Shown here piece by piece: positions 7,654 through 19,841 of a stretch of 46,499 nt of DNA. The stretch spans positions 1-46,499 of the forward strand of contig CAJJDF010000027.1 in NCBI GenBank assembly GCA_905182785.1. The letters are read 5' to 3'. Under the pieces are notes generated by a model. It made no database searches, was not told the origin of the DNA, and saw nothing but the letters and a program-made list of their open reading frames with translations. The position numbers and the translations under genes are program-made. Position 1 is the stretch's first letter. Each line of letters starts with the position of its first letter. The stretch is from an uncultured Flavobacteriales bacterium. Lineage in GTDB: Bacteria > Bacteroidota > Bacteroidia > Flavobacteriales_D > CAJJDF01.

Positions 7654-7792
7654 AATTCTTTCATTAAAATAGGTAAAAAATTCAACAATCCCTGTAATTT
7701 TTGTTTAAATTTTTTAAGTAACTGAAATTGATATTTTTAATAAAATAGTATTCAAGAATCAATTATTTATTCCTTTTGTGAGAAATATAGCG

Positions 7793-7800
7793 TACATTTA
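7793..7800 (+). promoter_or_regulatory. Putative -7 element of the structured RNA
   Basis: TACATTTA resembles TAnnTTTG and would start transcription near 7807. A TTTG at 7775-7778 lies only 14 nt upstream, shorter than the 19-20 nt seen at the other promoters here, so the -33 part is doubtful. Confidence 0.35.
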
Positions 7801-7806
7801 CAGTAA

Positions 7807-8006
7807 GAAAGTTCTAAAAGATATTGACTCACACAACCGTTATATAAACTTAACATTTTATACATTGGAGACCAACTTCGGATAATGATGGCGGGCCTCA
7901 ACCAATTTATTGGTTTGCTTTATTGCAATACAGAGGATTACAGAAATAAACGAGAATCTTCAACCATTTTTACAGAAGTTTATAAAACTTCGTGTGAGTC
8001 TTTTTT
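7807..8006 (+). ncRNA. Structured non-coding RNA of about 200 nt (possible 6S class)
   Basis: The 415-nt gap between the zinc-ribbon gene and the MuiA-like gene has no credible ORF but strong RNA signals. GACTCACAC (7826-7834) pairs perfectly with GTGTGAGTC (7992-8000). The helix continues with internal loops through TATAAACTT (7843-7851) against AAGTTTATA (7976-7984). The right arm is followed at once by TTTTTT (8001-8006), as in a transcript end. Inside, CCTC and GAGG close a region with two small hairpins (ACCAAT-TT-ATTGGT, TTGC-TTTATT-GCAA), below a C/G-richer GGCGGGCCTC segment unusual for this AT-rich DNA. A long closing helix, open centre and about 200 nt recall 6S RNA, but the inner branching fits less well. 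The family is unproven; the strand comes from the T-run. Confidence 0.6.
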
Positions 8007-8068
8007 ATCATTTTATTTTGAACCTAATTAAAACTTAGGTGTACAGAAAGTAAAATAAAACGATAAAA

Positions 8069-9769
8069 ATGAAAAAATTACTTTTACCTCTAGCCTTCTT
8101 TACTTTCTCAAATTCATTCTTTTCTGGCAACTATGAAAAAGATATAAAATCTAAAATTAAAAACGTTACCGTTTATCTCAATGGAGCTCAAGTTTCTAGA
8201 AGAGGAAATGTTACTCTTAAAACAGGGATAAATACCCTATATTTTAATGATGTATCTCCTTATGTAAACCAAAAAACTATTCAGGTAAAAGGAATGGGCG
8301 ATTACATTATTTTAGATACAAAAAAGAATATAAAATATCCCGAACCTTCAAAAGCAGTTGAAATTCCTACTAAAATCACTCGTCAAATAAAAAGAACTCG
8401 AGATTCGATAAGGAATATTGATTTTGAAGTAACTAATATTTCTCAAAAATTACAACACCTTAGAACAGAGAAAAATTATTTACTTAAAAATAAAGTTTTT
8501 ACAAAAGACACCTTACCTACTCTAATCAATTCTTTAGCTTATTTAAGAAAACAATTATTTGAAATAAATGATTTGGAGCAAAAACTAAAAAGAAAGCAAA
8601 GCGATTTATCTACTCTGAAAAGGACATTAAATAAAAGAATTTCTATTCTTAATAATTACAGTAGAAACAACACGCCAAAAAATAATGCAAAGCCCATACA
8701 TCAAATTGTGGTTACTGTGCAATCAAAAAAAGAAGTCTCTGGGAACATGACGATTACTTACTTTGTAACCAATGCAAGTTGGTCTCCTAGTTATGATATT
8801 CGTGTAAAAGACATTAACTCCCCAGTAGATTTAACTATGAAAGCTACTATTTATCAAAATACTCAAGAAGATTGGGACAATGTAAAATTGACTCTTTCTA
8901 CCAATAATCCTTATAAAAACAAAATAAAACCTGAGCTGAGTATTTGGTATATTAATTATTACAATCCTAATTTAGGTTACTATAAAGACGCGAGTAAACT
9001 GAAGACAAAATCAAATGTTGCACAATTAAATAGTATTCAATTTACTTCTGCTGACGTGGCTACTGTAAACATGGAGGAATCTCTTTCCTATAGTGGAAGT
9101 AACCGCCCTGCTCCTTCGGCAGTAAGTTCTACAAACTATACCGTAAAAACACAAACTATGGCGAATGTGGAATACAAAATAGATTTGAGGTATTCGATAA
9201 AATCTGATAACAAAGCTCACATGGTAGCTGTGGAACAACAATCAATCAAAGCAAAATACTCTCATTATTTAGTCCCAAAATACGACAAAGAATCTTATTT
9301 GGTAGCTCAATTATTGGATTGGGAAGACTTGGATTTATTGCCATCCAAAGCAAATTTATTTTATGAAGGAAGTTACATTGGCGAAACTAGAATAAACCCA
9401 ACTGCTAACGACACACTTTACATTTCCTTAGGCAACGATAGAAATGTGAAAATAAAGAGGACAAAAGACAAAGAAAAATCAAGAGAGAAAGTGTTCTCAA
9501 ACAGAAAAAACACAACTATTTCTTACGATTTATTTGTGAAAAACATGAGTTCAATAACTTACAACATAATTGTAGAAGATCATATTCCTGTATCTAGAGA
9601 TGAATCAATTAAAGTAACCTTGGAAAGTAAATCTAGAGCAAATTTTAATAAAAAAACAGGAATGATGAAATGGGAATTTGACTTGAAAGCTAAAGGAAAT
9701 AAAAAACTAAATTATACTTATAAAATAGAGTATGATACTGACAAATCACTTGACTTAAGTAAATTTTAA
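8069..9769 (+). CDS. MuiA-like protein (DUF4140/DUF4139)
   Basis: A 566-residue protein with an N-terminal signal peptide (MKKLLLPLAFFTFSNSFFSG). The DUF4140 region opens with VTVYLNGAQVSRRGNVTL and is followed by a coiled coil (about residues 105-200). The C-terminal DUF4139 beta domain begins near 215 (VQSKKEVSGNMTITYFVTNA) with the signature ASWSPSYDIRV and ends in YKIEYDTDKSL. The family includes a mucoidy-inhibitor homologue but has no settled biochemical role; it is probably periplasmic or outer-membrane associated. The SIMPL-domain gene follows after 26 nt, and the two form a likely operon ended by the terminator at 10727. The structured RNA lies just upstream. Confidence 0.85.
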   Translation: MKKLLLPLAFFTFSNSFFSGNYEKDIKSKIKNVTVYLNGAQVSRRGNVTLKTGINTLYFNDVSPYVNQKTIQVKGMGDYIILDTKKNIKYPEPSKAVEIPTKITRQIKRTRDSIRNIDFEVTNISQKLQHLRTEKNYLLKNKVFTKDTLPTLINSLAYLRKQLFEINDLEQKLKRKQSDLSTLKRTLNKRISILNNYSRNNTPKNNAKPIHQIVVTVQSKKEVSGNMTITYFVTNASWSPSYDIRVKDINSPVDLTMKATIYQNTQEDWDNVKLTLSTNNPYKNKIKPELSIWYINYYNPNLGYYKDASKLKTKSNVAQLNSIQFTSADVATVNMEESLSYSGSNRPAPSAVSSTNYTVKTQTMANVEYKIDLRYSIKSDNKAHMVAVEQQSIKAKYSHYLVPKYDKESYLVAQLLDWEDLDLLPSKANLFYEGSYIGETRINPTANDTLYISLGNDRNVKIKRTKDKEKSREKVFSNRKNTTISYDLFVKNMSSITYNIIVEDHIPVSRDESIKVTLESKSRANFNKKTGMMKWEFDLKAKGNKKLNYTYKIEYDTDKSLDLSKF

Positions 9770-19105: not shown

Positions 19106-19765
19106 CTACCCTACTTTACTACTTGTATTAATACCCGTCATATATGGATTTAAAATAACAGATCCAACTGCTCCTGAAAAATCAAGAAAATCAGAACTCA
19201 CTATTCCAGATTTAAAATTTACTGGTAATGATAATAAGGACGGAGCTGGCAGCCCAACTACTTGCTGAATGTCATCAAAAAAGAAAGCTGAACTTGCCAT
19301 TCCGTTACCTAAATTACCAAAATCAAACATAAAAAACTACCCCATTAAAATAGTTAGAGTTCCTGCAAAAATCCATTCCAATGTTTCCCAAGGTCCTGAA
19401 ACAGTTGTCAAAGCATTTACCTCTAATGAACCTGCCGAACTTTCCAATTTAAATTTTACAACTGTACCTATTGGAGCTGTTGTATATACTTTCATTGTGA
19501 TTTTTGTATTCACAGAAAAATCTAAATTAGCAGAAAGAACTAATTTACTTCCTACCCGTATTTGACCACTATCTCTTATCATTCGAGCAACAGAATCACT
19601 TAAATTAATTCCTGTTTTACCTGGATTAACCCTAACAATAGCTGTTCCTCCATCAAAATCAATAAAATCTGAAGTGGTAACTTTACTGTCAAAAATTATA
19701 GGAAAACTTTGAGAATAACTCAAAGAAAATACAAAAAGACTGAAAGTGAATAAAATTGATTTCAT
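19106..19765 (-). pseudogene. Secreted tandem beta-sandwich (carbohydrate-binding-like) protein, disrupted
   Basis: Signal peptide MKSILFTFSLFVFSLSYSQS from ATG 19765, then a module starting FPIIFDSKVTTSDFIDFDGG with TGINLSDSVARMIRDSG and SGPWETLEWIFAG. TAG at 19337-19339 interrupts it. Two codons later the same frame resumes with MFDFGNLGNG and ASSAFFFDDIQQV, the expected end of the module. A second module (LPVNFKSGIVSSDFLDF, TGINTSSKVG) then stops at 19106, far too short. Between GTL and MFDF another frame reads NYFNGVVF, as expected for the family, so two compensating indels probably occurred. Such modules occur in Bacteroidota secreted proteins, often with glycoside hydrolases. It follows the TonB receptor. 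Confidence 0.7.
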
Positions 19766-19841
19766 AAATGTATTATAACAGTTATTGTACAATATACAAC
19801 AACTAATCTAACTACAAAATAATTTTTTGGAGAAAATTGAA

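Follow-up and report, generated by a model that had tools for sequence, protein, structure and literature searches.

Results

The locus and its features

The window, by which we mean the whole stretch of 46,499 nucleotides from an uncultured Flavobacteriales bacterium that was analysed here, holds a gap of 415 nt (7654-8068) between a minus-strand ORF and the gene for a MuiA-like DUF4139/DUF4140 protein (8069-9769). In the genome, the RNA described below lies between the side of a ComF-like phosphoribosyltransferase and the MuiA-like gene. No ORF of at least 80 aa is present within 7654-8068, in agreement with a preliminary description of the window that had called the gap gene-free. That description had further seen a perfect 9-bp terminal helix (7826-7834/7992-8000), a T6 run directly after it (8001-8006), a putative -7 box about 7 nt before the 5' end (TACATTTA at 7793-7800, for which we count 6 nt) and a GC-richer core (GGCGGGCCTC at 7890-7899), all of which are found in place. 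The hairpin AACCAATTTATTGGTT at 7900-7915 is present as well. The interior fold backed by covariation is partly unlike the minimum-energy fold of the single sequence. The features of the locus are the following.

7793-7800 (+), -7-like promoter box TACATTTA of the Bacteroidota TAnnTTTG type, 6 nt before the putative 5' end
7806-8006 (+), candidate 6S RNA transcript, with the 5' end (~7806) placed from the -7 box and the 3' end at the T run
7826-7834 (+), closing helix P1, 5' strand GACTCACAC, pairing with 7992-8000 over a perfect 9 bp
7843-7851 (+), helix P2, 5' strand TATAAACTT, pairing with 7976-7984; pRNA synthesis is predicted to open this helix
7852-7866 (+), central bubble, 5' side AACATTTTATACATT, unpaired in the consensus, putative pRNA start region
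7867-7871 (+), arm helix, 5' strand GGAGA, pairing with TCTTC at 7957-7961
7877-7884 (+), arm helix, 5' strand, pairing with 7947-7954
7887-7899 (+), conserved core GATGGCGGGCCTC, of which CCTC (7896-7899) pairs with GAGG (7933-7936)
7900-7915 (+), apical hairpin AACCAATTTATTGGTT (AACCAA-TTTA-TTGGTT), with compensatory changes in the family and variable in other families
7933-7942 (+), conserved GAGGATTACA, comprising the 3' strand of the apical helix and the invariant GATTAC
7962-7975 (+), central bubble, 3' side, unpaired in the consensus structure
7975-7991 (+), alternative hairpin GAAGTTT-ATA-AAACTTC, a predicted competitor of P2
7976-7984 (+), helix P2, 3' strand AAGTTTATA, common to P2 and the alternative 3' hairpin
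7992-8000 (+), closing helix P1, 3' strand GTGTGAGTC, pairing with 7826-7834
8001-8006 (+), T6 run directly after the closing helix and, together with it, a putative intrinsic terminator

Folded as a single strand, 7807-8006 reaches -43.2 kcal/mol compared to a shuffle mean of -30.4 kcal/mol (z -3.6), a value equalled by 0 of 200 shuffles. The RNA (7826-8006, plus strand) occurs as a single copy in its own 2.3-Mb genome, and is therefore not a dispersed palindrome; the preliminary description had named dispersed copies as the mark of a transposable palindrome, and one copy is what the genome contains. No DNA similar to the locus was found in phage records.

Relation to Rfam families

6S RNA is a known kind of small RNA by which the cell's RNA polymerase is sequestered once nutrients are exhausted. 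Based on the evidence presented here, the 200-base stretch is almost certainly the 6S RNA of this bacterium, and its gene was previously unannotated. At the gathering threshold, an Rfam scan of the window reports one tRNA only and leaves the RNA gene unreported. When the gap was scanned with an E-value threshold, RF01693 (Bacteroidales-1), which Rfam describes as "6S-Bacteroidales RNA suggested", matched 7825-8007 on the plus strand over its full length (1-179 of 179) with 48.8 bits (E=4.5e-7). The curated gathering cut-off of RF01693 is 60 bits, about 11 bits above this score, which is why the standard scan misses the RNA and why we call it a homologue of RF01693, outside formal membership of the family as Rfam defines it. 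The RNA resembles RF01693 in its length, in the core GGCGGGCC...GGATTACA and in the inner helices. Unlike the structure found here, the Rfam consensus contains neither the closing helix nor P2, both of which are supported by covariation.

Neither RF01685 (6S-Flavo) nor RF00013 (canonical 6S) has a match in the window's genome. Of the models that the preliminary description had proposed to scan, Bacteroidales-1 thus finds the RNA, under its cut-off, while 6S and 6S-Flavo do not. Across the 249 genomes of the order, the RF01693 model gives one match per genome in 47, of which 1 is above the cut-off, and the RF01685 model gives 1 match; at one locus of the order (L040) RF01685 and RF01693 both match the same place. 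The resemblance to 6S RNA that had been remarked upon at the outset is therefore one of homology, given the RF01693 match, the strong covariation described below and the fact that in relatives the matches overlap with those of the 6S-Flavo and canonical 6S models. Two of the loci also carry a second RNA family: a Flavo-1 RNA (RF01705, 69.5 bits) lies at L070 2470-2547, about 1 kb or less from a 6S-Flavo gene, and Flavo-1 also matches L040 weakly, at 14-112.

Covariation across the order

The relatives were aligned over 49 loci of the order, with a structure of 39 pairs and with shuffled (500) and slid alignments as controls. In this alignment 87.1% of cells are paired, compared to 71.3% in the shuffled and 34-54% in the slid controls. 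Changes on both sides were observed in 34 of the 39 pairs (25.6 shuffled) and in 356 cells (121 shuffled), and 0 of 500 shuffles reach any of these three values. The closing helix P1 has both-side changes in 9 of 10 pairs with 94.7% of cells paired, P2 in 8 of 9 pairs with 85.2% of cells paired, and the arm helix 7877-7884/7947-7954 in 7 of 8 pairs. For the arm helix 7867-7871/7957-7961, compensatory GGAGA/TCTCC and ATGGA/TCCGT occur within the family, and the apical helix is 99.5% paired, with one pair found, for example, as GC in 19, UA in 19 and AU in 7 sequences. A long closing helix is present in 49 of 49 loci, followed in nearly all by a T-rich run, and its sequences have diverged (for example GACTCACAC/GTGTGAGTC, CCCGTGCGAG/CTCGCACGGG and TCCGCACCG/CGGTGCGGA). 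The core GGCG and GC are nearly invariant in the 49 sequences and GATTAC is invariant, and TAACA at the 5' edge of the bubble's 5' side ranks with the best-conserved bases in the 5' half of the RNA. The closing stem, central bubble and terminal arm that make up the architecture of the 6S class are thus present and supported by covariation. Together with the RF01693 match, these data bear out the earlier proposal: the RNA is structured, unannotated and some 180-200 nt long.

AT-rich intergenic DNA gives rise to many weak inverted repeats, which would speak for a chance palindrome followed by a terminator, or for a dispersed repeat. Such an origin has a negligible probability here, being refuted by the single copy, by covariation far over the controls and by a core conserved in 49 sequences. 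A 17-nt AT-rich inverted repeat (8003-8019/8052-8068, 94%) joins the T run of the RNA to the bases before the start codon of the MuiA-like gene; this repeat may be a chance product of AT-rich DNA.

Model searches in the order and phylum

We built a covariance model from all 49 loci (R1) and a held-out model from 33 sequences that excludes the window's family (R2). As the training sequences of R1 match it by construction (137.4 bits for the window, 7826-8006), the weight is carried by two independent tests, the held-out model and a search of the phylum. R2 finds exactly 7826-8006 in the window with 103 bits (E 6.4e-23). In the phylum search, R1 recovers true RF01693 members at equal coordinates with 81.5 and 73.1 bits (184 and 167 bits in RF01693) and true 6S-Flavo members in place with 57-66 bits; the latter score 98-112 bits in RF01685, over the cut-off of that family. 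Outside the class, R1 also matches loci of one family that RF00013 hits too, weakly, with 39.4 and 27.8 bits compared to a cut-off of 46.4 bits.

E. coli ssrS is not matched by R1, even with filters off, so the link to canonical 6S RNA runs through these intermediates of weak score (about 27.8-39.4 bits). For this reason, and because RF00013 has no match in the genome, the RNA is not filed in RF00013. With canonical 6S RNA it shares the closing stem, the central bubble, the arm and a similar length, but its arm is branched and its conserved core is different.

Within the order, 102 of 249 genomes have an R1 match, at a single place in each. The 147 genomes where R1 has no match include all listed members of some genera (e.g. 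g10 and g18); these may hold divergent copies missed by strict filters, or they may have lost the RNA or carry a much altered one. A cmscan of 20 further R1 matches (L082-L101; 57-120 bits in R1) gave no Rfam family at E 0.05, so R1 reaches beyond the current models and is itself the sole support for these 20. The preliminary suggestion of a lineage-specific RNA stands for the sequence and falls for the class of RNA.

Promoter

The -7 box consensus of Bacteroidota is TAnnTTTG, and TACATTTA (7793-7800) fits it except for the last base. Three relatives of the same genus have the boxes TATCTTTG, TACCTTTA and TATCTTTA at nearly equal distance, 32-36 nt before the helix. Of 53 loci, 20 have a strict TAnnTTTG in the 90 nt upstream, compared to 3.6 expected and a maximum of 10 in 200 shuffles. 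A -33 box in strict form and at the expected distance could not be established. Judged by the -7 box, transcription would probably start near 7806.

Genomic neighbourhood

The RNA lies directly upstream of the MuiA-like gene on the same strand, and both genera of the window's family (f1) share this arrangement, as might be expected of a 5' leader or cis-regulatory element (a riboswitch or attenuator) of the gene at 8069-9769. The MuiA-like gene follows the RNA only within f1, however. In other families, unrelated genes adjoin the RNA (queE-like, proC-like, zapA/rny and others), sometimes with the next gene in opposite orientation; it is found across the class, and it has its own terminator-like helix and T run. 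Since its neighbours differ between families, a leader role is highly improbable, and we reject the earlier suggestion of a 5' leader element. The 6S RNA is thus independent of its neighbours. When the MuiA-like protein was used as a query for relatives in the genome contigs searched, none were found.

Among relatives of other orders, zapA and rny flank the RNA in 6S-Flavo loci, in another family of the class and in the RF00013-matching family outside the class. A zapA neighbourhood is common, although not obligatory, for 6S RNAs. In the window's genome zapA and rny are direct neighbours, and the 58 nt between them (L103 1431-1488, G000:C19) contain no such RNA. As this site is empty, the data point to relocation of the RNA gene away from zapA-rny, in contrast to the 6S-Flavo members, which lie there. 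The E. coli 6S gene ssrS also adjoins zapA, downstream of it (PMC7641849), as do the class and phylum relatives of the window's RNA. Sequence drift and departure from the usual neighbourhood together explain why standard RNA searches miss the gene.

In three other families (L013, L039 and L050) the gene downstream of the RNA appears by eye to be queE-like (7-carboxy-7-deazaguanine synthase). This setting may be a second stable location after leaving zapA-rny.

Discussion

Our analysis very probably identifies 7806-8006 (plus strand) as a single-copy 6S RNA gene with its own promoter, whose product would hold RNA polymerase and be released upon pRNA synthesis. Sequestration of sigma-RNA polymerase, with a 3' hairpin refolding triggered by pRNA, is the mechanism that we infer to be best supported. 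The RNA would be transcribed from its own promoter and end at the closing helix and T run. P1 and P2, the central bubble (7852-7866/7962-7975) and the branched arm would together mimic an open promoter, and once growth stops the polymerase carrying the housekeeping sigma would be bound and held. On return of nutrients, the 5' side of the bubble would serve as template for the polymerase, and copying into the 5' strand of P2 (7843-7851) would produce a short pRNA and unwind P2. The freed 3' strand of P2 could then form the hairpin 7975-7991, and the RNA would be released.

Polymerase binding and pRNA synthesis are expected here by analogy with homologues. When pRNA is made on 6S RNA of the E. 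coli type, the helix beside the bubble is opened, and the 3' strand of that helix then joins an extended hairpin that drives release; the role of the 5' side of the bubble in pRNA synthesis is likewise taken from 6S RNAs in general (PMC8876501). A 6S RNA and pRNAs have been detected in Bacteroides thetaiotaomicron (PMC7366714), an RNA that we assume to be that of RF01693. For predicted Bacteroidetes pRNAs, PMC7366714 cites Wehner et al. (2014).

P2 and the 3' hairpin share one strand and are mutually exclusive, and the two competing folds are predicted to be nearly equal in stability in the window, with pair probabilities of 0.31-0.46 for the alternative hairpin and 0.47-0.53 for P2. When the 5' strand of P2 is blocked, the hairpin 7975-7991 is predicted to form. 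The P2 duplex of the window's own sequence has an energy of -9.8 kcal/mol (z -3.6), and over the 49 loci the mean P2 duplex is -10.5 kcal/mol within sequences compared to -7.7 kcal/mol across sequences. All 49 loci have a predicted 3' hairpin, of lineage-specific sequence, though in some of them neither fold clearly beats shuffles. The partner of the shared strand lies 3' of it in the window's family and, as in E. coli, 5' of it in other families. In E. coli 6S RNA, by contrast with the window's family, the corresponding strand pairs with the 3' side of the bubble.

The branched arm and the divergent sequence would also fit an RNA that resembles 6S but binds another partner, such as core polymerase, and is not a true 6S RNA. 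PMC9130861 describes actinobacterial Ms1 in these terms, as a polymerase-binding RNA structurally related to 6S RNA but bound to core polymerase. Ms1 belongs to another phylum. The matches of our model are common with 6S-Flavo and, weakly, RF00013 matches. Moreover, the RF00013 and RF01685 models gave no other 6S candidate in the genome, and both 6S RNA and pRNAs were detected in Bacteroides. We therefore consider a partner of the Ms1 kind very unlikely and retain the reading as a true 6S RNA that would sequester the sigma-bound enzyme.

With moderate confidence, we propose that RF01693, RF01685 and, from the family outside the class, the RF00013-like RNAs form one continuous Bacteroidota 6S lineage that lay ancestrally between zapA and rny and left this site in the window's order. 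In the same proposal, the 3' refolding hairpin would have been kept by selection while its pairing partner switched sides, being found 3' of the P2 strand in the window's family and 5' in some others. The evidence for three Rfam families as one lineage and for a relocation from zapA-rny adds to the interest of the locus. More generally, 6S RNA is a global transcription regulator that in Bacteroidota is divided among narrow Rfam families and mostly missed; in the order studied, R1 offers a single candidate per genome in 102 genomes, compared to 47 for the Bacteroidales-1 model (1 over its cut-off) and 1 for 6S-Flavo. Predictions of pRNA and refolding can now be tested for lineages that have no genetic model.

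Elsewhere in the window, two consecutive short ORFs on the minus strand (19106-19792) have a common motif, SDFxDFxG...NPxxTGIN; they may be the two pieces of a frameshifted gene for a secreted protein, or may encode a repeat protein.
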